DNA of 64,000 bases from an uncultured Rhodospirillales bacterium (GTDB lineage: Bacteria; Pseudomonadota; Alphaproteobacteria; ATCC43930; CGMCC-115725): assembly GCA_903822185.1 (NCBI GenBank), contig CAIJOA010000011.1:620001-684000 (forward strand), given 5' to 3'. The notes below the pieces were generated by a model. The model saw only the letters and a program-made list of their open reading frames with translations, made no database searches and had not been told where the DNA came from. The stretch's first letter is position 1, and the number at the start of each line of letters is the position of its first letter. The position numbers and the translations under genes are program-made. This document shows positions 5,193-59,938 of this stretch, piece by piece.

Positions 5193-6221
5193 TTACAGCG
5201 CCTTCACCGCCGGCAATACTTCGCGCACGAACAGGTCGAACGAACGCATCGTTTCGGCATGGGTCAGCGTGCCCAACGCGAACTGCAACAGCGGATAATT
5301 GACTCCCGATTCAGTGATCGTGCGTATCAGTTCATTCTTCACCGTCTCGGGTGTGCCGGCGATGACGCTGCCAACGCGGCGGCGCGCGATCTCGAACGAA
5401 CCGGTCAGGAACGCAGCGGTGAAGCCATAGCTGTTCGCTTGATGCTCGAGGTTTTTGTACCAACGTTCATAGGCCGGCTGCGCAATCTTCTCGGCTTCGG
5501 CATCGCTGTCCGCGACGACGATCATGCGGACGAGGCCCAAGTTCGGTTCGGCGGCACGGCCTTGGCGTAGCGGCGCGTCCTTGTTGCGCTCCCACGCATC
5601 GCGATATTCCGTCACGGCCTGTTTGATGCGCGGCGCGGGCGCCCAGCCGGCATTCATCGCCGCGCCCAACGACGCGATATAGTCGCGCGTCACGCCCGAG
5701 GACGAGCCATACCAAAGCGGCGGAAATGGCTTCTGGATCGGCTTTATCTCAACCGGCACATCGTAATATTGCCAGCGCGCGCCGCGATGGGTGACGCGGT
5801 CGCTGGTGAAATATTGGATCATCAGATCCATCGATTCACGGAAGAGATCGCGCGTCTCGTTGATGGTCTTGCCGAACATCGACAATTCCCACGGCGAGAT
5901 GCCTCGCCCGACACCGAGTTCCATCCGGCCATTAGACATCTGATCCAGCATCGAAATTTCTTCGGCGAGGATCAGCGGATTGTGAAAGGCGAGCGCGTAG
6001 GCCAACGGCCCCAGCCTGATCTTCTTCGTCCGCGCCGCCAGCGCGCCGAGAAAAACGCCAGGCAGCGGCGCCATGCCGACGGGGTTCCAATGATGTTCGG
6101 CCATGTGATAGCTGTCGATGCCGGCGGCATCGGCGGCTTCGACGAACTGTATCCGCTCCTCGTAGAATTGCGGCAGCGGCGTCTCGTTGCGGTCGAGATG
6201 ATCGAAAAGGCCGATTTTCAT
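5193..6221 (-). CDS. LLM-class (luciferase-like) flavin-dependent oxidoreductase
   Basis: 342 aa; MAEHHWNPVGMAPLPGVFLGALAARTKKIRLGPL and NGRMELGVGRG typical of bacterial luciferase-like monooxygenases. Confidence 0.9.
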   Translation of the reverse strand: MKIGLFDHLDRNETPLPQFYEERIQFVEAADAAGIDSYHMAEHHWNPVGMAPLPGVFLGALAARTKKIRLGPLAYALAFHNPLILAEEISMLDQMSNGRMELGVGRGISPWELSMFGKTINETRDLFRESMDLMIQYFTSDRVTHRGARWQYYDVPVEIKPIQKPFPPLWYGSSSGVTRDYIASLGAAMNAGWAPAPRIKQAVTEYRDAWERNKDAPLRQGRAAEPNLGLVRMIVVADSDAEAEKIAQPAYERWYKNLEHQANSYGFTAAFLTGSFEIARRRVGSVIAGTPETVKNELIRTITESGVNYPLLQFALGTLTHAETMRSFDLFVREVLPAVKAL

Positions 6222-6235
6222 AAAAACGTTCCGCG

Positions 6236-7255
6236 TTATTTGATGAAGCTGTTGTCGATCAGCGGTTTGTAGTCGGGAAGCTTGTCCTCGGGTTTCAGGA
6301 ATCCCGCCGCCGCGTTCATGTTGTCGCCGTTTTCGAGTTCTTCCGGTGTCGTGATCGGCTTTTCCGGCGTCAGCGTCCGCACCGTCTCATAAGCCGCCTC
6401 GAGAACCTTGTCGCTGTAAGCGCCGAAATGCGCCTTCATCACCGCGATCGAGGTCGCTTTGTCGCTGCGGATGACCTTGGTCGCTTCGAAGATGCCATGG
6501 ACCATCTTTTCGCACACCGTCTTATGCGTGGCACAAAAATCGCCGCGGGTTAGCAGCAGCGCCGCCGAGACGGGAGAATAAGCCTTCGGTTCGCCCTTAC
6601 GCGTGTCCGAAATCATCACCCCCGTGCCGTCGAGCACGACCTGTTCGGTGAAAGGCGGGCTGTTGGAGAAACCGTCGATCGCCTTGCGCGAAAAAGCGGC
6701 CATGAATTCCGGCGGTTGCATCGGCGTCGTAATGACGTCGCTGGGGCCGAGACCCGCGCTTTTGGCGATGACTTTCAGAACCACATCGGGAATGGCGCCG
6801 ATGCCGGGCATAGCGATGGTCTTGCCCTTGAGAATTTTCGCGCGTTCCTCGATGGGCGCGTTCGGATCGTAATGCGCGGCGTCGGTAATGTCTTTGCGTA
6901 GCACGATCGATTGACCGGATTCGCTGATCGCCGTCAGCAGCGCGACGACTTTCTGTCCGCGCGCATAGGCCCGCGTGATGGTCGCGCCCGACGACATCGA
7001 AAAATCCGCAGACCCGCCGATGACCGCATTCATCGAGCCGATGCCGGTGATGTTCAGCACCTTGGTGTCGAGGCCCTGCTTCTCCCAAAGCTTTTGATCG
7101 ACGGCGATATATTGCGAGAGGAAGAGAAGATTTTGGCCGGGGATCGCGAGCGCCGTCTCTTCAGCTTGGGCCACACGTGGGACGAAGCCCGCCGTCACCA
7201 TCGAGAGGCCGAGCATGGCCAGGAACGCCGTCTGCGTGGAACACCGCCTCGTCAT
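6236..7255 (-). CDS. ABC transporter substrate-binding protein (NMT1/SsuA-like)
   Basis: 339 aa; signal peptide, NLLFLSQYIAVDQKLWEKQGLDTKVLNITGIGSMNAVIGGSADFSMSSGA; paralog of next gene. Confidence 0.85.
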   Translation of the reverse strand: MTRRCSTQTAFLAMLGLSMVTAGFVPRVAQAEETALAIPGQNLLFLSQYIAVDQKLWEKQGLDTKVLNITGIGSMNAVIGGSADFSMSSGATITRAYARGQKVVALLTAISESGQSIVLRKDITDAAHYDPNAPIEERAKILKGKTIAMPGIGAIPDVVLKVIAKSAGLGPSDVITTPMQPPEFMAAFSRKAIDGFSNSPPFTEQVVLDGTGVMISDTRKGEPKAYSPVSAALLLTRGDFCATHKTVCEKMVHGIFEATKVIRSDKATSIAVMKAHFGAYSDKVLEAAYETVRTLTPEKPITTPEELENGDNMNAAAGFLKPEDKLPDYKPLIDNSFIK

Positions 7256-7392: not shown

Positions 7393-8406
7393 TTACTGGA
7401 ACGAGTTGTCGATCAGGTCGTCGTAATGCGGCAGCTTTTCCTCGGCTTTGAGAAAGCCGGCGGCGACGTTGAGGCTATCGCTGTTCTCGAGCATCTTCGG
7501 CGTCGTGACCGGCGGCACCGCCGTCAGCGCGCGCACCGTCTCGTAAGCGGCGCGCAACACCTTGTCGTCGTAGGCGCCGAAATGCGCCTTCATCACCGCG
7601 ACCGTCGCGTCGGGCTGCTCGCGGATAAAGACCAGCGCATCGACCAGCCCCTTCACCATCTTGTCGCAGATGGATTTGTCCTTGGCGCAGTAATCCGCCT
7701 TGGTCATCAGCACCGCCGAGGAGACGGGCGAGAATTCCGTCGGCTCGCCCTTGCGGGTATCCGACAACAGGACGCCGGTACCTTCGATCAAAGTCTGTTC
7801 GACGAAGGGCGGCGAATTGGAGAAGCCGTCGATTTTCTTGGCGGCAAAGGCGGCCATGAATTCCGGCGGCTGCATCGGCGTCGCCAGCATCTGATCGGGC
7901 GCGACGCCGCCGGCTTTACCGACGGCCTTCAGCACCACATCAGGCACGCCAGCGGTTGCGCCATGGGCGATGGTGCGGCCCTTGAGAAATTGCGCGCGCA
8001 CCGACAGTGGCGCGTTGGGATCGAAATGCCCGGCCTCGGCGACATCCTTGCGGATGATGATCGATTGCCCGGTTTGATTGATCGCCGTCGCCAGTGCCAC
8101 CAACTTTTGCCCGCGCGCCACCGCACGCGTGATCGCCGCACCGGACGACATCGAGAAATTCACCGAACCGGAAATCAGCGCATTCATCGCCCCGATGCCG
8201 ACGATGTTCAGCACCTTCACATCGAGCCCGCGCTTTTCCCAAAGATGCTGGTCGGCGGCGACGTATTGGGAGAGGAACAGCAGATTGACGCCGGCCACCG
8301 CGACCGAAGCCTGCTCGTTTGCGGCGCGGGCCGGTGCAGCGAGCGTAGCAATCGCCACCACGCTAAGAGCTAAACGCGCAAAATTCTTCATGCCGACATT
8401 CCCCAC
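7393..8406 (-). CDS. ABC transporter substrate-binding protein (NMT1/SsuA-like)
   Basis: 337 aa; close paralog of 6236-7255 along full length. Confidence 0.85.
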   Translation of the reverse strand: MGNVGMKNFARLALSVVAIATLAAPARAANEQASVAVAGVNLLFLSQYVAADQHLWEKRGLDVKVLNIVGIGAMNALISGSVNFSMSSGAAITRAVARGQKLVALATAINQTGQSIIIRKDVAEAGHFDPNAPLSVRAQFLKGRTIAHGATAGVPDVVLKAVGKAGGVAPDQMLATPMQPPEFMAAFAAKKIDGFSNSPPFVEQTLIEGTGVLLSDTRKGEPTEFSPVSSAVLMTKADYCAKDKSICDKMVKGLVDALVFIREQPDATVAVMKAHFGAYDDKVLRAAYETVRALTAVPPVTTPKMLENSDSLNVAAGFLKAEEKLPHYDDLIDNSFQ

Positions 8407-42675: not shown

Positions 42676-44091
42676 TCAGGTCCCGCGCCCTTTACCACCC
42701 GCGTGACCGCTGACGTCGGCGCCGACGTCGCGGGACAGCGGAATGTAAGACAGCATCGACAGCAGGATCATCACCGTCGCCGCCGCGAAGGCGAGCCGCA
42801 GGTCGATGGCCGACAGCGTCTCGCCGCCGCGTACCGTTTGCGTGATGTGCATCAGGCCGGCGACGAAGGCGATGCCGAAGCCACGGCTGAGTTGCTGTGT
42901 CATGCTGGCGATGCTGGTCGAGGACCCCATCTTCTCATCGGGAATATCGGAATAGCCCAGCGCCTGCAGCGCGGTGAATTGCAGCGCTGGGAAGAACCCG
43001 CCCAGCAGCAGCACGATGAAGATGACCGCGAACGGCGTGTCCGCGGTGAAAAGGATGCACGCGCCGATCGCCGCAGCGCAGAGGAACGTGTTGGCGATCA
43101 GCACCGTGCGAAAACCAAAGCGCCGCAGCACCGGCGTGGTGGTGAGGCGCATGATGGTCGAACCGCCGGCGCTGGCGATGGTCAAGAGGCCCGAGGCGAA
43201 AGCGCTCATACCGAAGACGGCCTGAAACAGCAGCGGCAAGAGGAACGACAAGGTTCCCGACCCGGCGCGGAAGACCGACCCGCCGCCGAAATTGACCCGG
43301 AAAGTCTCGATCGACATCACCGATATGTCGAGAATCGGATGCGGATGGCGCTTCAGATGCCGCCAGGCCACGACGCCGATGGCAAGGCCGGTGATCACGA
43401 GGACCGAACCGATGATCGCCTCGTAAAGGCTGTGCGAGATGATCTCGATCCCGACCATGATGCCCGACAGCGACACCGCACAGAGCACGAAGCCGACGCC
43501 GTCGAGCGGCCGGATCACCCGCTCGCCATCGTCTTCGATGAAGCGATAGGACAGGGCCATGCCGATGACACCGATCGGGATATTGATCAGGAACGCCCAG
43601 CGCCACGAGGCATAGGTGGTGATGAAACCGCCGACCGGTGGCCCCAGCAACGGCCCCAACTGTGCCGGCAATTGCAGAAAGGCCATGATCGGCACGAGCT
43701 GCGATTTCTCGATGCTGCGTAACAGCACCAGCCGCCCGACCGGCACCATCATCGCCCCGCCGCAGCCCTGAAGAATACGTGCCGCCGTCAGGGTGACGAG
43801 GCTATCGGCGAGGCCGCAAAGGATCGAGCCGACGGTGAAGACGGCGATCGCGGCGCAGAAGACATTCCGCCCGCCATAACGGTCCGCGGTCCAGCCGCTG
43901 ATCGGAATGAACACCGCGAGGCCCAACAGATAGGACGTCACTGCGATGCTGAGATGGATCGGATCGGTGCCGAACGACAGCGCCATCTGCGGCAGCGCCG
44001 TCGTCACCACCGTCCCATCGAGCTGCTGCATGATGAAAGCGCACGCGACGATGCCCGCGACGAATTTCGGATGCGTGTGCAAGGCGGGCAT
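42676..44091 (-). CDS. MFS transporter, DHA2 (EmrB/QacA-like) family
   Basis: 471 aa, about 14 TM; MQQLDGTVVTTALPQMALSFG; WRWAFLINIPIGVIGM. Confidence 0.92.
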   Translation of the reverse strand: MPALHTHPKFVAGIVACAFIMQQLDGTVVTTALPQMALSFGTDPIHLSIAVTSYLLGLAVFIPISGWTADRYGGRNVFCAAIAVFTVGSILCGLADSLVTLTAARILQGCGGAMMVPVGRLVLLRSIEKSQLVPIMAFLQLPAQLGPLLGPPVGGFITTYASWRWAFLINIPIGVIGMALSYRFIEDDGERVIRPLDGVGFVLCAVSLSGIMVGIEIISHSLYEAIIGSVLVITGLAIGVVAWRHLKRHPHPILDISVMSIETFRVNFGGGSVFRAGSGTLSFLLPLLFQAVFGMSAFASGLLTIASAGGSTIMRLTTTPVLRRFGFRTVLIANTFLCAAAIGACILFTADTPFAVIFIVLLLGGFFPALQFTALQALGYSDIPDEKMGSSTSIASMTQQLSRGFGIAFVAGLMHITQTVRGGETLSAIDLRLAFAAATVMILLSMLSYIPLSRDVGADVSGHAGGKGRGT

Positions 44092-44196: not shown

Positions 44197-45171
44197 TTAT
44201 GATTTCGGCTTCCAGCCTTCGGCCTTCACATCGGCGGCGGCTTTCTCGACGATGCTGAAATCGAACACGGTCTTGGCCGTCGGGATCTTGTCCTTGGCGA
44301 CACTAAGCATGTCGGCGCGCAGCGCGATCTCGTTGTCCTGCAGGTCGCGCGGGATCACACCCGTCGCCAGCATGCGCGGCACGAACTCGCCGGCCGAGAA
44401 TTCGGCGGCGCTTTTGTCGAGGCCGTGTTTGATCATGCTGTCGCTGGCGGCGGCGGGCGTCGCTTTCACCTGCGAGATGCCTTTATAGATCGCGCGCATC
44501 GTGCGGCGGACGAGATCGGGGTTCGAGGCGATCAGCGCATCCGAAGTGGCGAAGCCGCTAAGCGCCATGCGCACTTCGGCGTGCATGTCGATCAGCATCT
44601 TGAGCTTGCCGGATTTGTTGAGCGCGGCGATGTCGGCGCTTTCGCCGCCGTCGATCACAGCCGCCGGGAACGTGCCCGAGGTCAGCGCCGCGATGCGCGC
44701 CGCCGTCGCGCCCAGCGGCGTGAAGGAGACGTAATCGTCCGGCAGATGGCGCTGCGCCAGGACATAGCGCAGGCTGATCTCGGTGGTGTCACCCCGGCTA
44801 ATGACGCCGACCTGCTGGCCCTTCAACTGTTCCAGCGACATGATGTCGGGCCGCACCCATAGCTCATAAGCCGAACGATCCTCGCCGACATAGAGCACCT
44901 TGAGCTTCGCGCCCTTGAGGATCGCGCTGATCGCCGCCGAAGAGGAGCCGCTGAAATCGAGACTGCCCGCGATCAGCGCCGGTGTCGCGACACCGCCCTG
45001 CGCCTGCACCAGCTCGACCTCGATGCCTTCCTCGGCGAAGAAGCCGCGATCGATCGCGACGAGCAGCGGCGTGTAATCGATCGTCGGCACGACATAGGAG
45101 AAGTGAATTTTGTCGGCAGCCTGCGAGGGGACGGCAAAGAAGCAGGCTGCCAGCAACGCGATCCAACGCAT
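44197..45171 (-). CDS. ABC transporter substrate-binding protein (array member A)
   Basis: 324 aa; GGVATPALIAGSLDFSGSSSAAISAILKGAKLKVLYV; VISRGDTTEISLRY. Confidence 0.88.
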   Translation of the reverse strand: MRWIALLAACFFAVPSQAADKIHFSYVVPTIDYTPLLVAIDRGFFAEEGIEVELVQAQGGVATPALIAGSLDFSGSSSAAISAILKGAKLKVLYVGEDRSAYELWVRPDIMSLEQLKGQQVGVISRGDTTEISLRYVLAQRHLPDDYVSFTPLGATAARIAALTSGTFPAAVIDGGESADIAALNKSGKLKMLIDMHAEVRMALSGFATSDALIASNPDLVRRTMRAIYKGISQVKATPAAASDSMIKHGLDKSAAEFSAGEFVPRMLATGVIPRDLQDNEIALRADMLSVAKDKIPTAKTVFDFSIVEKAAADVKAEGWKPKS

Positions 45172-45242
45172 GAAGAACCTCCCTATTTTTATCGCGCTTA
45201 GGGTTTACCCACTCGCTTTATCTCGCTCCTCTTAAGAAGAAG

Positions 45243-45698
45243 CTATCGGGCATTCAACAATCTACGATTGAGAGTTTCCACCCATTCGCGAGATTGCTTA
45301 CCGTCGAAGAGACCTGCGTTGATCGTGACAGGGGCACCCTTTTTCCTGGAACCCATGTGGAAAACAATACGCTGCATGGGACCAAAACCCTGACGACTAA
45401 GCTCAAATTTGGCACGCGCAATTTCCACGAGTCTAATCTCTTTATGGACAAATAAGGCTCGGTAGTTAACGGCGGAATCTTCAATCACAAGCCGCGCAGT
45501 TTTCAACCATGACAAATGAACCAAAGAAAATAGCCCTAATGCGACTGCAGGGATTAGTAATCCGCGCGCACGCTCCAGCGCCAATCCTTCAATAGCGACC
45601 AGCACCGCAATTGTTGGAAACGGCGCACCAAATAGCAGCCACATAATTCGAGACGTGCGAAGCACCATAACATCGACTTCGTCGTGATTTTTTGTCAT
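45243..45698 (-). CDS. Small membrane protein, PH-domain-like, unknown function
   Basis: 151 aa; two hydrophobic segments near N-terminus then soluble domain; less GC-rich than its neighbours. Confidence 0.55.
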   Translation of the reverse strand: MTKNHDEVDVMVLRTSRIMWLLFGAPFPTIAVLVAIEGLALERARGLLIPAVALGLFSLVHLSWLKTARLVIEDSAVNYRALFVHKEIRLVEIARAKFELSRQGFGPMQRIVFHMGSRKKGAPVTINAGLFDGKQSREWVETLNRRLLNAR

Positions 45699-45802
45699 CG
45701 TTTATAAAGCTAAATTGAATTTGTGCGCCCGCTGTATTTAGAACAGCACAAACTTACGCCGGACCATAGAAGAAGGATACAGAAACACAAACCCAACCGC
45801 CC

Positions 45803-46390
45803 TCACACCGGCGCCAGCACGTCCCGCATTTCATCGACCATCTGCGCCAGTTTCAGTTTCGTGCGGTCGTCGGTGATGATGCCCTTCTCGCGATCGACGG
45901 CGCGGTTGATCGGGCCGATGGGGGCGGTTGCCGGCACGACATAGCCGCGCAGCGCATGGGCGATCTGTTCCATCGCGCCGATGGCGTGGATCGCCGCGAT
46001 CGGTCCCGACGAGGCCGCGATCAGCCCGACCAGCTTGCCGCCGAGGAACGGCGGATCGTCGTTCTCCATCAGCTCGACGAAATCGAGCAGGTTCTTGAAC
46101 GCGCCGCTGATGCTGTAGTGATAGGACGGCGTGCACCAGACATAGGCGCGGGCGCGGCGGAAGGCTGCGATCAGCGGCTCGGCTTCCTTGCAGCTATCGG
46201 CGTGCATGTCGGGGTGATAGAGCGGCAGATTCATCGCCTCTGGTGGCAGCAGCTCGTAGGACATGCCGCGTTCCTCGAACAGCGCCGCCGTATATTTCAT
46301 CAGGATCGTGCAGGCCGATTGCTTGTTGAAGCTGCCGCCGACGATCAAAACGGGCGCAGACGGATCGCTGCGCCCCATACCGTTTCTCAT
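45803..46390 (-). CDS. NADPH-dependent FMN reductase family protein
   Basis: 195 aa; VLIVGGSFNKQSACTILMKYTAALFEERGM; YVWCTPSYHYSISGAFKNLLDFVEL. Confidence 0.88.
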   Translation of the reverse strand: MRNGMGRSDPSAPVLIVGGSFNKQSACTILMKYTAALFEERGMSYELLPPEAMNLPLYHPDMHADSCKEAEPLIAAFRRARAYVWCTPSYHYSISGAFKNLLDFVELMENDDPPFLGGKLVGLIAASSGPIAAIHAIGAMEQIAHALRGYVVPATAPIGPINRAVDREKGIITDDRTKLKLAQMVDEMRDVLAPV

Positions 46391-46408
46391 CCCACCAAAG
46401 CCTTGTTG

Positions 46409-47407
46409 TTACTTCTTCGAAATTTTCGGCTGCCAGTTCTCGGCTTTCAATTCCGCATTCGCCTTGTCGGCATAGGTAAAATCGAAAACATCGGACGCCT
46501 TGAACTTGTCTTTGGGCAGATCGAGCATCACCGCGCGTGTGGTGACGTCGAAATCCTGATCCGACTGAGCCATCGTGCCGGTCGTCGTGATCGAATCGAT
46601 GATGTTGTCGTATTCGAGGGCGACCGCGGTGGGATTCGAAAGACCATGCTTCAGCAGGATATCGACGGTATCGCCTTTCGATGCCTTGACGTGCCGCACG
46701 CCCTTGAGGACCGCGCGGGCCATGCGCCGCATCAGGTCCGGGTTTTTCGCCAATAAGGCATCGCTGGTCGCGAGCGCGTTATAGGCCATGCTGATTTCCT
46801 GCCGCAGATCGACGACCTTATGCAGCCCCTTGAGCTTGCCGGCATTCTTCAAGTCCTCGGCTTCGTTGGCGTTCAGCATCGCGCCGGGATAGCTACCCGA
46901 CGACACCGCCGCACTGCGCGCCAATCCCGGGCCGAGCGGGGCATAGGAAACCGTGTCGTTCGGAAGATTATGCTTGGCGAGGTAGTAGCGGATCGCGATT
47001 TCGGTCGTGTCGCCGCGGCTTATGACGGCGATGGTCTTGCCTTTGAGATCGTCGAAGCTCTTCACGCTTTCGGGCGACCATATCTGCATCGCCGGATGGG
47101 CATCGACGACGAACAGTACCTTGAGCTTGGCGCCTTTGAGGATCGCGCTGATCGCGACCGAGCCCGACCCGGTGAAATCGAGCCCGCCGCTAATAAGGGC
47201 CGGGACAGCGACGCCGCCGCCCGCCTGCTCGAGTTCGATTTCGATCCCCTCTTCCGCGAAATAGCCTTTGTCGATCGCCATGAAGAAGTCGGCATATTCG
47301 ACGGAGCTGATCACATAAGAGAGTTTTACCTTGTCCAAGGCATTGGCGCTGGGTGACAGCGCCAACACGGCGACAAGGGCGGCGGCAAACCGGATCGCCC
47401 GATTCAT
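46409..47407 (-). CDS. ABC transporter substrate-binding protein (array member B)
   Basis: 332 aa; shared GSVAISAILKGAKLKVLFV and VISRGDTTEIAIRYYL motifs. Confidence 0.88.
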   Translation of the reverse strand: MNRAIRFAAALVAVLALSPSANALDKVKLSYVISSVEYADFFMAIDKGYFAEEGIEIELEQAGGGVAVPALISGGLDFTGSGSVAISAILKGAKLKVLFVVDAHPAMQIWSPESVKSFDDLKGKTIAVISRGDTTEIAIRYYLAKHNLPNDTVSYAPLGPGLARSAAVSSGSYPGAMLNANEAEDLKNAGKLKGLHKVVDLRQEISMAYNALATSDALLAKNPDLMRRMARAVLKGVRHVKASKGDTVDILLKHGLSNPTAVALEYDNIIDSITTTGTMAQSDQDFDVTTRAVMLDLPKDKFKASDVFDFTYADKANAELKAENWQPKISKK

Positions 47408-47415
47408 AAACTACC

Positions 47416-48564
47416 TCACAGTTTGGGTTTCCAACCTTCGGCCTTCAATTCGGCTGCTGCTTTTTCGGTAAAGCTTTCGGCGAAGACATCCGACGCCTTG
47501 GGCAGTTTGCCTGCATCGACGCCGAGCATTTCACCGCGCACCCTGATTTCAAAAGCCTGAGCGTCGGGCGGCACCACACCCGTCGGCGAAATACTCGCCG
47601 CGAATACGTCCCACCCGTCTTCGGCGCCGGGCTTGGTCGAGCCGTGATTGACCAAGGCCTTCACCGTTTCCTCTTTCGAGGCCTTCACCACTGCGAGGCC
47701 CTTCAGCAGGCCGCGCAAGAAATGCCGCACCGATTCCGGATTCTTCGCGATCACCGCATCCGAGGTCGCATAACCACCGAAGGTCATGCGCACGTCTTCC
47801 TTGCGCAGATCGTACATCAGATGAAGCTTCGAGAGCTTACCGGCATTCTCCATATCGCGTACTTCGGCGACATCGATCAGCGCTGCCGGATAAGCGCCCG
47901 AGGCAAGCGCAGCCATACGCGCGGTGCCGGTGCCAAGCGGCGCATAGGACAGGTAATCCGCCGGCAGGTTCCGCTTGTCGAGCATGTAGCGAATGATGAT
48001 TTCGGTCGTGTCGCCGCGGCTGATGATGCCGATGGCCTTGCCCTTCAAGTCTTCGAACTTTTCGACACCGGGCTGCGCCCAAATCTGGAAGGCCGAATGA
48101 TCTTCGCCGACGAACAGCACCTTCAAATGTGCGCCTTTGATCGAGGCGCTGATCGAAGCCGAGGGCGAGCCCGAAAATTGGATATCGCCCGAGATCAGCG
48201 CCGGGGTCGCGACACCGCCGCCTGCCTGTACCAATTCCGGATCGAGATTTTCCTCGGCGAAATAGCCCTTATCGACCGCCACCAGCATTGCCGCATATTG
48301 CATCGTCGGCACGACATAGCTGATCTTCACATGATCGGCGGCATTGGCGACACCGGCAACGCTCATCGCAGCGGCGAAAGCGATAACGGACATCAACCCA
48401 CCGAAGCCCGACGCTTTCTCAGCCTCTCCCCTCGGGGAGAGGTCGGCGCGAAGCGACGGGTGAGGGGGGAGACCGCACAATGTTTCCCCCTCACCCCACC
48501 CCTCTCCCCGGCGGGGAGAGGGAGAAAGAGCAGGCAATATCGTCTTCAAATTCTTAGCAATCAT
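47416..48564 (-). CDS. ABC transporter substrate-binding protein (array member C) with a repeat in the leader-coding region
   Basis: Shared ISRGDTTEI motif; TGATG-coupled start at 48564 reads [27 protein letters not shown]...GLMSVIAFAAAMSVAGVANAADHVK; alternative start at 48393. Confidence 0.85.
   Translation of the reverse strand: MIAKNLKTILPALSPSPRRGEGWGEGETLCGLPPHPSLRADLSPRGEAEKASGFGGLMSVIAFAAAMSVAGVANAADHVKISYVVPTMQYAAMLVAVDKGYFAEENLDPELVQAGGGVATPALISGDIQFSGSPSASISASIKGAHLKVLFVGEDHSAFQIWAQPGVEKFEDLKGKAIGIISRGDTTEIIIRYMLDKRNLPADYLSYAPLGTGTARMAALASGAYPAALIDVAEVRDMENAGKLSKLHLMYDLRKEDVRMTFGGYATSDAVIAKNPESVRHFLRGLLKGLAVVKASKEETVKALVNHGSTKPGAEDGWDVFAASISPTGVVPPDAQAFEIRVRGEMLGVDAGKLPKASDVFAESFTEKAAAELKAEGWKPKL
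48421..48529. repeat. Dispersed GGGGAGAGGG repeat inside SBP C coding region
   Basis: Same family as 33050, 38904, 39913, 42587. Confidence 0.85.
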
Positions 48565-49553
48565 CACGGCTTCCAATTCTCTGCTTTTAGCTCCGCACCG
48601 GCCTTTTCGGTGGCGCGGAAATCGAACACTTGCGACGGCGCACCGATCTTGTCCTTGGCAAGGCCCAGCATCTCGCCGCGCACCTGCAATTCCAGCTTCT
48701 GATCGTCCAGTGCCATCGTGCCGACCGTGCTCAGTTCATCGACCGAGCCGTCATAGTCGCTTTCGACGACTTTACGGTCGGCGACACCGCCGAATTTCAT
48801 GATCGCTTTGATCGATTCTTCGCGATGCGTCTTGGTGTAGATCATCGCCTTGATAATCGCCCGCATCGCACGCCGGGCGAGATCGGGCTTTTCATTGAGC
48901 AACGCATCGGTGATCGCGAAGCCGCTGAACGTCATATGCACGTCCTGATGCAGATCGACCAGCATATGAAGATTGTCGAGCTTATTCGAGGCGCGCAGCA
49001 TCGCGAGATCGGTCTTGTCGAGCACCGAGGCGGCATAGCTGCCCGAGCTGATGCCGGCCATGCGCGCCGTCCCCGTGCCGAGCGGCGCAAAGGCGGTGTA
49101 ATCTTCGGGCAGGTTCTTGCGCACGAAATAATAACGCATCGCGATCTCGGTCGTATCGCCGCGCGAGATTACGCCGACCGTCTGCCCCTTCAGATCGGCC
49201 AGGGTCTTGATGTCGGGACGCGACCAGAGCTGGAACACGGCGCGATCCGAGGTGACGAAAATCACCTTGAGCTTGGCGCCCTTGAGAATTGCCGTGATCG
49301 CCGCCGCAGGCGAACCCGAAAACTGGATATCACCGGCCAGCAGCGCCGGCGTCGCCGCGCCGCCACCGGCCTGCATCAATTCGGCATCGATGCCTTCCTG
49401 CGCGAAATAGCCCTGATCGACGCCCATGATCAGATCGGCATAAAAGGTCGAAGGCACGACATAGGAGAACTTCACCTTGTCGGCCGCGACGGCCGGCGCT
49501 GCGACGGCAAAGGTCAGCAGCGCGGCGGCTGCAAAATGCTTCACGAATTTCAT
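48564..49553 (-). CDS. ABC transporter substrate-binding protein (array member D)
   Basis: MKFVKHFAAAALLTFAVAAPAVAADKVKFSYVVPSTFYADLIMGVDQGYFAQEG; ISRGDTTEIAMRYY; ATGA overlap with member E. Confidence 0.88.
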   Translation of the reverse strand: MKFVKHFAAAALLTFAVAAPAVAADKVKFSYVVPSTFYADLIMGVDQGYFAQEGIDAELMQAGGGAATPALLAGDIQFSGSPAAAITAILKGAKLKVIFVTSDRAVFQLWSRPDIKTLADLKGQTVGVISRGDTTEIAMRYYFVRKNLPEDYTAFAPLGTGTARMAGISSGSYAASVLDKTDLAMLRASNKLDNLHMLVDLHQDVHMTFSGFAITDALLNEKPDLARRAMRAIIKAMIYTKTHREESIKAIMKFGGVADRKVVESDYDGSVDELSTVGTMALDDQKLELQVRGEMLGLAKDKIGAPSQVFDFRATEKAGAELKAENWKP

Positions 49554-50533
49554 GGTTTTGGCTTCCAACCTTCGGCCTTGAGTTGCTGTGCGGCTTTGCG
49601 AACGAAACTGAAATCGAAGACTTTGTCGATGCCGGGGATCTTGTCCGGTGGAACGCCCAGCACATCGCCGCGCAATTTCAATTCAAACGCCAGGTCCGGA
49701 TCGGCCATGTCGCCGGTATCGGTCAATTCGTGCGCAGTGATGTCGTAATCGACCTCGGCCGAGGCACGATCCGGATTGCCGTGCTTCATGATCGCATCGA
49801 TGGTGCGTTCGCGCGCGACCTTGGCAAGGGCGATGCCTTTCATCGCCGCGCGCATCACTTTCAAAACGCGATCGGGATGATTGGCGATCTCCGCGTCGCT
49901 CGTCGCGATGCCGCTGAAGGTCATGCGGACCGATTCGGTGAAATCGGCAAGCAGATGAAGCTGGCCGATGCGGCCCGATGATTTGAGCTGCGCCGTTTCG
50001 ATCTGACCCAGCACCACCGCCGGATAGGAACCCGAAGCGAGCGCCGCGAGACGCGCCGTGCCTGTGCCGAGCGGCGTGAACGCGACGGAGTCCGACGCGA
50101 GGCCCTGCTTGATCAAGTAATAACGCATCGCGATTTCGGTCGTATCGCCGCGCGAAATGACGCCGACCTGCTTGTCCTTAAGGTCCGCCGCGACCTTGAT
50201 GTTAGGCTGCGCCCACAGCAGATAGCCGGGACGATCGTTGGTGATGAAGATCACCTTGAGCTTAGCGCCTTTAAGGATCGCGCTGATCGCCGCGCCGGGT
50301 GAGCCAGTGAAATCCTGATCGCCCGAAATCAGCGCCGGGGTGGCGACACCGCCGCCTGCCTGAGTCAGTTCAACGTCGAGGCCTTCATCCTTATAGAAGC
50401 CCGCGTCATAGCCGAGCAGGATGCCGGCATATTCCGTGACCGGCACGACATAACTCATCTTCAGCTTGTCGGCTGCGGCCGCCGGGGTGGCGATCGCAAG
50501 CGCGCAAAACAGCGTCAGAAAAACACGACTCAT
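49550..50533 (-). CDS. ABC transporter substrate-binding protein (array member E)
   Basis: 327 aa; GSPGAAISAILKGAKLKVIFI; VISRGDTTEIAMRYYL. Confidence 0.88.
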   Translation of the reverse strand: MSRVFLTLFCALAIATPAAAADKLKMSYVVPVTEYAGILLGYDAGFYKDEGLDVELTQAGGGVATPALISGDQDFTGSPGAAISAILKGAKLKVIFITNDRPGYLLWAQPNIKVAADLKDKQVGVISRGDTTEIAMRYYLIKQGLASDSVAFTPLGTGTARLAALASGSYPAVVLGQIETAQLKSSGRIGQLHLLADFTESVRMTFSGIATSDAEIANHPDRVLKVMRAAMKGIALAKVARERTIDAIMKHGNPDRASAEVDYDITAHELTDTGDMADPDLAFELKLRGDVLGVPPDKIPGIDKVFDFSFVRKAAQQLKAEGWKPKP

Positions 50534-50535
50534 TC

Positions 50536-51555
50536 TTAGGGCTTCCCAATCTTAGGTTTCCAATTTTCCGCCTTGAGTTCGGCGGAAACCTTATCGACGA
50601 AGTGAAAGTCGAAAACTTGTTCCGGCTTCTTGATCTGATCTTTTGGTACACTGAGCAAATCACCACGCAGTTGCAGCTCGAACGCTTCCGCGCCGAGCGC
50701 CGTCTTGCCGGTCGAGCTCAACAGCCCGGCGCTTGAATCATATTGCGCGGCCGCTTTGCTTGCATCGCCGTTGCCGTGCGCGACCATCGCCGCGACGGAA
50801 TCTTCTTTCGATGCCTGGGTGTGATGCATGCCTTTGACGAAGGCGCGCAGCATCCGGCGAACGAGATCGGGATTCTTGGCAATCAACGCATCGCTAGCGG
50901 CGAGACCGCTGAACACCATGCGCACGTCTTTGGTCATGTCGGCGAGTTGATGCTGGGTCTGGAATTTGCCCGAGGCTTTCAGCTCTTCCATCTCGTTGAC
51001 GCCCAGCAGCGCTGCAGCATAAGCGCCCGAGGCGATGCCGGCGAGACGGCCCGTGCCGGTGCCGAGCGGCGTATAAGCGACGAAGTCGCCCGGATGATTG
51101 TGTTTCACCAGGTAATAACGCATGGCGATTTCACTGGTGTCGCCGCGGCTGATGATGCCGACCGGTTTGTCTTTCAAATCCTCGATCGATTTGATCTCGG
51201 GCTGCGCCCACAACTCGAATGCGGGACGATCGCTGGTGACGAACAACACCTTGAGCTTCGCGCCTTTGAGGATCGCGCTGATCGCGACCGAGCCCGAGGT
51301 GCTGAAATCGAGATCGCCGGCCAGCAGCGCCGGGGTGGCTACGCCGCCGCCCGCCTGCACCAATTCGGCCGCGATGCCTTCATCTTTAAAGTAGCCTTTA
51401 TCGATGGCGAGGAAGAGCGGCGCATAATAAGGCGCGGGCTCGACGTAATTCACTTTGATGCTGTCGAGCGCGTAACTGGGCGCGGCCAAAGCCGTCACCA
51501 CACCGCACATCGCCGTCAATCGACATAGGAATCCCGATAGCGCTTTGCGCGGCAA
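50536..51555 (-). CDS. ABC transporter substrate-binding protein (array member F)
   Basis: Start chosen at TTG 51555 behind GGAGGAAA; MPRKALSGFLCRLTAMCGVVTALAAPSYALDSIKVNYVEP; GIISRGDTSEIAMRYYL. Confidence 0.86.
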   Translation of the reverse strand: MPRKALSGFLCRLTAMCGVVTALAAPSYALDSIKVNYVEPAPYYAPLFLAIDKGYFKDEGIAAELVQAGGGVATPALLAGDLDFSTSGSVAISAILKGAKLKVLFVTSDRPAFELWAQPEIKSIEDLKDKPVGIISRGDTSEIAMRYYLVKHNHPGDFVAYTPLGTGTGRLAGIASGAYAAALLGVNEMEELKASGKFQTQHQLADMTKDVRMVFSGLAASDALIAKNPDLVRRMLRAFVKGMHHTQASKEDSVAAMVAHGNGDASKAAAQYDSSAGLLSSTGKTALGAEAFELQLRGDLLSVPKDQIKKPEQVFDFHFVDKVSAELKAENWKPKIGKP

Positions 51556-58766: not shown

Positions 58767-59771
58767 TCAGTGCGGCAGGTTGACGACGAAGCGTTCGTCG
58801 AACAGCTGCTTCGGATCGACCCGGTCTTTGATCATGCCTTCTTTGAGGAACCATTCGATCTCGTGCATCGTGCCGGCTTCGTCGAGCCGCGCCTCGGGAT
58901 CGAAATAGACCGCGCCTTCCTTGACCTGCGCCGGGGTGAGGCCGGTGTTTTTCGCGATGATCGCTGCGACCTCGTCGGAGCCGGGCCCCTCGGCGCGGCG
59001 GCCGTCGGGACCAGTTACGGCGTCGTGATATTCCTTCACCCCGCGCTTATAAACGCGCAGGAACTTCGCCAGCCGGTCGGGATGCTCCGTCGCCGTCTTG
59101 GTTCCGGTGAAAACACCGCCCAACGGGAACGGCACTTCATCGCCGGTCCATCCCAGCAGCTTCACGTCGCCCTTGTCGATCAGCGGCAGCGCCGCCGAAC
59201 CGAGCAGCGACGACATATCGACCTGGTTGCCGGTCAAAGCCGACGCGACACCGGCCAGCGATTGCAGCGGCACGACACGGACGGATTTGAAATCGAATTT
59301 GTATTTCTCGGCGAGCAGCGCCAGCTCGTAATGCGGCGGCGCGCCGATCGCCGAAACGCCGAAGCTGTGATTGGCGAAATCCTTGGGGCTGCGCACGCCG
59401 GCATTCCAGGCGTTGTTCGACACCACCATCGCATCGGAGTGGAAGCTGATCGCGTTCTGCGCATAACCGGCGATGAGACGGACGCCGCCCTGGCCCGCGA
59501 GCGCGAACAACCCGCCGGTATAGGCGGTAAGCCCGACATCGATATCGCCACCCGTCGCCGCCACCGACATCGGCTGCGCCGAGGGGAAGGTGATGACATT
59601 CGGCTCCAGCCCGACGTCTTTGAAATAGCCTTTTTCGACCGCGATATAGATCGGGCCGCTTGAGGTGCTTTTGAGCAGGCCGATCTTGATCTCTTCGGCG
59701 GCGGCACCCTGCGCGAGCATCAGACCGGACGCGAGCGCCACGCCGCATAATAGAGACTTACTCATTCTCAT
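58767..59771 (-). CDS. ABC transporter substrate-binding protein (NMT1-like, third subfamily)
   Basis: MRMSKSLLCGVALASGLMLAQGAAAEEIKIGLLKSTSSGPIYIAVEKGYFKDVGLEPNVITFPSAQPMSVAATGGDIDVGLTAYTGGL; start corrected. Confidence 0.87.
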   Translation of the reverse strand: MRMSKSLLCGVALASGLMLAQGAAAEEIKIGLLKSTSSGPIYIAVEKGYFKDVGLEPNVITFPSAQPMSVAATGGDIDVGLTAYTGGLFALAGQGGVRLIAGYAQNAISFHSDAMVVSNNAWNAGVRSPKDFANHSFGVSAIGAPPHYELALLAEKYKFDFKSVRVVPLQSLAGVASALTGNQVDMSSLLGSAALPLIDKGDVKLLGWTGDEVPFPLGGVFTGTKTATEHPDRLAKFLRVYKRGVKEYHDAVTGPDGRRAEGPGSDEVAAIIAKNTGLTPAQVKEGAVYFDPEARLDEAGTMHEIEWFLKEGMIKDRVDPKQLFDERFVVNLPH

Positions 59772-59938
59772 CGCGACATTCCCCTCGCCAAAAATGCTGT
59801 CATAAATCTTCACACGATTGCGCCGTGCCGACAAGCCTGTCGCATCGGCCATGCGGACGGCGCGGCAAATTTACGCAAGCAATGCCGCGCCTTCTTGTAT
59901 GATCACCAGGGAAGCAACGTGATCGCGCAGTGGAAGCC

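Follow-up and report, generated by a model that had tools for sequence, protein, structure and literature searches.

A tandem array of six NMT1-type substrate-binding proteins without a local transporter, in a genome rich in such receptors

Introduction

The closest precedent for the locus described here is the expansion of TTT-type (TctC/Bug) substrate-binding proteins (SBPs) in Rhodoplanes sp. Z2-YC6860, Bordetella and Cupriavidus (PMC5994714). The Rhodoplanes expansion comprises 434 SBPs in 8.2 Mb, with a longest array of nine, and both shared transporters and sensing have been proposed for the orphan members (PMC5994714).

We analysed a 64-kb window (C11:620001-684000) of the 4.27-Mb genome of an uncultured Rhodospirillales bacterium, a 50-contig assembly of 95% completeness. 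The window contains six tandem SBP genes, here called A to F. These are PF09084 (NMT1) proteins and hence not members of the TctC/Bug group; PF03401 (TctC) has only two strong and two partial matches in this genome, none of them in the array.

Results

The original prediction placed six tandem SBPs at 44197-51555 of the window, and we find them there, all on the minus strand and all with PF09084 matches (60.7–85.3 bits) above the cut-off of 20.5. The features that matter for what follows, in window coordinates, are these:

5193-6221: luciferase-like monooxygenase, adjoining the SBP at 6236
6236-7255, minus strand: distant NMT1-type SBP of a 24-member subfamily, about 20% identical to A–F
7393-8406, minus strand: distant NMT1-type SBP, 61% identical to 6236-7255
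42676-44091, minus strand: major facilitator superfamily (MFS) gene (PF07690), directly downstream of A
44197-45171, minus strand: SBP A, 324 aa, PF09084 85.3 bits, signal peptide visible by eye
45172-45802, minus strand: 47%-GC stretch holding a 151-aa open reading frame (45243-45698) with no Pfam match
45803-46390, minus strand: NADPH-dependent FMN-reductase-like flavoprotein, PF03358, 84 bits
46409-47407, minus strand: SBP B, 332 aa, PF09084 80.4 bits
47416-48576, minus strand: SBP C, PF09084 77.5 bits, start uncertain (ATG 48564, in a TGATG overlap, or ATG 48393)
48564-49568, minus strand: SBP D, PF09084 60.7 bits, likely ATG start at 49553
49550-50533, minus strand: SBP E, 327 aa, PF09084 74.6 bits
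50536-51555, minus strand: SBP F, PF09084 79.1 bits, with a plausible signal peptide from a TTG start at 51555
58767-59852, minus strand: distant NMT1-type SBP of a 30-member subfamily

The six array proteins are 45–54% identical to one another and have in common the motifs GG(V/A)A(T/V)P, ISRGDT(T/S)EI and KAE(G/N)W. Signal-like N-termini can be recognized by eye in all six, although that of C is uncertain owing to a repeat in the region. The shared motifs and tight junctions that had been described for the array hold, with D starting at ATG 49553 and F at TTG 51555: B and C are separated by 8 nt, C and D overlap in TGATG, D and E overlap in ATGA provided D begins at ATG 49553, and E and F are 2 nt apart. 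F fits the 51555 coordinate only with the TTG start there. The FMN-reductase-like gene, 18 nt downstream of B, encodes a protein that scores below the NCBIfam cut-offs for SsuE and MsuE. This gene between A and B, the low-GC stretch adjoining it and the genome-wide expansion described below had all escaped the original prediction. A promoter and terminator scan returned fewer predicted sites than in shuffled sequence. Near 48400-48560, either inside the SBP C signal peptide or immediately preceding it, lies a palindromic repeat of the CCCTCTCCCCGCCGGGGAGAGGG type, read as PSPRRGEGWGEG; a similar repeat precedes an SBP at C11:272891.

No ABC permease or ATPase accompanies the array, as had been noted. 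The 64-kb window contains no PF00528 permease, the nearest lying at C11:607664 and C11:748971, and the lone P-loop protein in the window that bears an LSGG motif is SMC. With no adjoining permease and ATPase genes, A–F do not form part of a complete ABC importer locus. The three more distant SBPs that had been noted in the window, at 6236, 7393 and 58767, are indeed PF09084/PF13379 proteins about 20% identical to A–F.

The array is a real and well-conserved feature. A member of the same genus, the metagenome-assembled genome uncultured Rhodospirillales Umea3_bin-2224 (G001), has the order F-D-C-B-FMN reductase-A (locus L001), flanked by MutY on one side and by a hydantoinase B gene on the other. 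Five of its SBPs are one-to-one syntenic orthologs of array members, E alone being missing; the best match of E is about 54% among the congener loci examined. A is 83% identical to its ortholog (dN/dS 0.18 by the NG86 method), B 68.5% (L001:8362-9369), C 59.7% (L001:7379-8365) and D 65.8% (L001:6405-7382), while the ortholog of F (L001:5425-6402) pairs with F at 100% tree support. The FMN reductase is found in the same place (L001:9366-9938, 67% identity). Across A–D the NG86 dN/dS values are 0.18–0.35, and the frames are intact. A syntenic array in an independent genome rules out an assembly artefact, the concern that the original prediction had raised against itself.

With orthologs shared in the same order, the duplications are older than the split of the two species, and the array is not junk. 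The serial duplication that had been proposed for A–F is favoured both by the similarity of the array copies, which are most similar to each other, and by the five of six orthologs kept in order. Tree support for A–F as a single clade is low (55%), as is that for deeper branching within the array (44–60% at several nodes). In the congener, the stop codon of the FMN reductase gene lies only about 5 nt from the start of A, so the ancestral unit was probably a single operon that included A. The 47%-GC stretch is absent from the congener and is therefore probably an insertion that split A from the rest of the array.

A–F belong to a subfamily that we can follow through the genome. Searching with a profile built from them gives 15 full-length members here and 12 in the congener; the 37 other family genomes contain none at E≤1e-40 (2 of 39 positive, both from this genus). 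A one-to-one pairing of SBPs with permeases, which the original prediction had named as evidence against itself, was looked for and not found: the 15 subfamily SBPs compare with two subfamily-linked permeases. At the first of these loci, genes for a permease, an ATPase and an Amidohydro_2 protein come after an SBP gene (C4:47854); another Amidohydro_2 gene lies downstream, and hydantoinase A and B genes in divergent orientation are close by. Judged by both sequence and order, the congener has this arrangement too. At the second (C11:769-774 kb) three SBPs (C11:769417-772351) converge on an ATPase and a permease, and the congener keeps this locus with two SBPs. The C4 and C11:773 permeases share about 60% identity; neither exceeds 44% with any further permease in the stretches searched. 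When linked pairs are compared pairwise, these two permeases are mutual nearest neighbours, and likewise their SBPs. The best NCBIfam scores of the permeases related to the subfamily are to the TauC, SaoP and SsuC models. The distant shared transporter of the original prediction has thus become plausible and specific, with two permease/ATPase loci linked to the same subfamily, at which A–F would be predicted to dock.

A further subfamily member, at C28:336625, is an orphan in this genome with no permease nearby. Its ortholog in the congener (85% identity, C6:569 kb, L092) lies beside permease and ATPase genes and two more genes; a search of this genome for a counterpart of that permease gave nothing at E≤1e-20. 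Given 95% completeness, the simplest reading would be that the transporter was lost here and the SBP retained; gain in the congener is possible. The orphan here, being transporter-linked in the congener, suggests that SBPs can apparently outlive their local transporter. The C28:336 kb locus (L005) also shares neighbours, by sequence, with another congener locus (C7:1450 kb, L094), the SBPs of the two not being mutual closest relatives, and an SBP swap or relocation seems likely there.

The array is one among many runs, and the notion that it is limited to these six genes can be rejected. A first-look PF09084 search returned 252 candidates in this genome and 281 in the congener, compared with 4–45 in most other members of the family; another genus of the same family (G014) has 121, a second and smaller expansion. 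Of the 252, the best 150 were scored. We then counted SBPs with an iterated profile over the SBP-bearing stretches around hits (1.65 Mb); with at most 150 candidates scored per search, the genome-wide counts are lower bounds. There are at least 214 NMT1-type SBPs, of which 184 are of high confidence (full-length, ≥180 bits). No PF00528 permease lies within 5 kb of 151 of the 214, or within 10 kb of 141. The SBPs are far more numerous than their membrane partners and concentrated in one lineage, which makes this a lineage-specific expansion of orphan SBPs. Joining genes at gaps below 3 kb gives runs of 16 (C48:85-103 kb), 10 (C39:70-80 kb) and 9 (C48:110-121 kb), alongside the six of the window. 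When 214 genes are placed at random in a set of about 4,100 (an assumed gene count), the longest run comes to just 2–4 genes, so the six-gene array is not a matter of chance. All 16 NMT1-type genes of the longest run (C48:85208-103208; L009, L010) share a strand, and there is no permease within 5 kb of them. They face the nine-SBP run on the other strand (C48:110013-121471), which has two permeases inside it.

Nearly all of the high-confidence SBPs (173/184) fall into nine subfamilies, of 52, 30, 24, 18, 15, 11, 9, 8 and 6 members, with few transporter loci in each. An SBP and its best paralog have a median identity of 52%. Runs of three or more comprise 89 SBPs, and 65 of these match best to another member of their own run. 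Genome-wide, SBP distances and linked-permease distances show weak concordance (Mantel r=0.17, p=0.044, n=27); subfamily is therefore only a fair guide to partner, and the partner assignment for A–F rests on their own subfamily. Across the genome, operon neighbours of NMT1-type SBPs include luciferase-like monooxygenases (the commonest family, 5 of 92 neighbours scanned), 2OG-Fe(II) oxygenases, glyoxalase-fold proteins, Rieske proteins, UbiD and hydantoinase B, a set that points to the breakdown of organic compounds.

The AlphaFold model of E (pLDDT 89.2, pTM 0.85) has the type II periplasmic binding-protein fold. Its best Foldseek match is 3qsl (E=2.2e-21), followed by thiamin-bound 4nmy, Thi5, ThiY (3ix1), SsuA and TauA; DszB is also among the structural matches. 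The 3qsl entry, exported protein CAE31940 of Bordetella bronchiseptica, is the closest solved structure both by sequence (2e-20) and by fold, with about 23% identity to E over the structural alignment, and its PDB title names no ligand or function. The ThiY and thiamin-type NMT1 proteins (3ix1, 4nmy) have the type II fold in common with E at 15–19% identity over the structural alignment.

Across the 11 proteins compared, the GGxAxP, RGDT(T/S)E and PLG...R segments hardly vary, and no Cys or His is invariant. By contrast, in the first loop (E residues 28-36) and in other loops, paralogs differ more than orthologs do. Positions conserved in orthologs and variable in paralogs fall in pocket loops in 15 of 35 cases, against 9.4 expected (p=0.02). 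The loops were picked by fold topology, not by ligand contacts, so this enrichment is modest evidence, and it lends modest support to the diversified ligands of the original prediction.

Discussion

We propose that A–F are tandem-duplicated, diverged receptors that deliver their ligands to one or both subfamily-linked TauC/SsuC-like importers encoded elsewhere in the genome, a reading to which we give a probability of roughly 55%. The six would be secreted substrate-binding receptors, products of tandem duplications older than the split between the two species compared. Their binding pockets would have diverged, and a membrane transporter of their own would have been lost or never present. The small organic compounds that they bind, related but not the same, would most likely pass to one or both of the TauC/SsuC-like permease–ATPase pairs at C4:46.2-47.9 kb and C11:772.4-774.1 kb, many interchangeable receptors thus serving few shared ABC importers. 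The imported compounds would then be degraded by oxygenases, amidohydrolases and hydantoinase-like enzymes. The genes themselves, their homology, orthology and selection, the lack of a local transporter and the two transporters linked to the subfamily are observed; that A–F are transcribed as an operon, dock in trans, bind the proposed classes of ligand and have diversified pockets is what we infer. In an assembly of 50 contigs and 95% completeness, the partner of A–F might itself be missing.

If the paralogs were mostly redundant or decaying duplicates, kept by dosage or scavenging, little ligand diversification would be needed. The congener array does lack E, and a repeat lies in the signal-peptide region of C. 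The paralogs, however, are just about 50% identical, their orthologs have intact frames and dN/dS values of 0.18–0.35, and specificity-type sites are conserved within orthologs; we consider redundancy unlikely, if worth bearing in mind. A role in sensing, with ligand-loaded SBPs contacting histidine kinases or chemoreceptors in place of a transporter, strikes us as distinctly unlikely. No sensor gene is seen near A–F, their subfamily relatives are linked to transporters, and the commonest SBP operon neighbours genome-wide are metabolic enzymes, although sensory roles are known or proposed for orphan TTT SBPs (PMC5994714) and elsewhere in this genome an NMT1 SBP has a GAF-histidine kinase-receiver protein among its operon neighbours.

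The MFS gene downstream of A, on the same strand, raises the question of whether A–F feed a non-ABC carrier, either that protein or another secondary transporter. SBPs of the TTT family offer a parallel, being linked to TRAP as well as ABC systems (PMC5994714). Yet the array of the congener is not flanked by the MFS gene (there, the hydantoinase B gene comes after A), and the NMT1-type SBPs of the A–F subfamily are linked to ABC permeases, which leaves such a carrier quite improbable. We find it very improbable indeed that A–F are periplasmic enzymes with the NMT1/THI5 fold, a fold that the enzymes Thi5 and DszB have. Both of these proteins are among the structural matches, but the want of any invariant Cys or His argues against an enzymatic role, and relatives are encoded beside ABC transporters.

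Delivery to shared importers may extend well beyond A–F. We suggest, tentatively and at slightly less than even odds, that in this genus the receptors of ABC importers have become separated, genome-wide, from the membrane components. Some 200 or more NMT1-type receptors, in few subfamilies and in runs of up to 16, would share far fewer TauC/SsuC-like transporters and so form a modular receptor library for organic compounds. Fifteen related SBPs, two closely related candidate transporters and an SBP that has a transporter beside it in one species but stands alone in the sister species make the question of shared importers directly testable, and the answer could show how uncultured alphaproteobacteria take up unusual organic compounds.

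We found no report of an NMT1-type or ABC-type expansion of this size, in a literature search covering few subscription journals. SsuA and TauA (TIGR01728) have the same fold and Pfam family as A–F, but the four array members scanned score 60.8–65.9 bits against a cut-off of 163.5 and so fall outside that group, and A–F differ from SsuA/TauA in having no local transporter. The likeness to the TTT systems is closer: in both cases paralogous SBPs, here putatively secreted, number in the hundreds, are mostly orphans, are spread genome-wide as well as in tandem arrays whose members are about 50% identical or less, and are lineage-specific. Unlike the TTT proteins, those described here are ABC-type NMT1 SBPs, and their longest array has 16 genes as opposed to nine in Rhodoplanes. 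The genus thus offers an ABC-type counterpart to the TTT expansions, with 15 related SBPs and two closely related candidate transporters.
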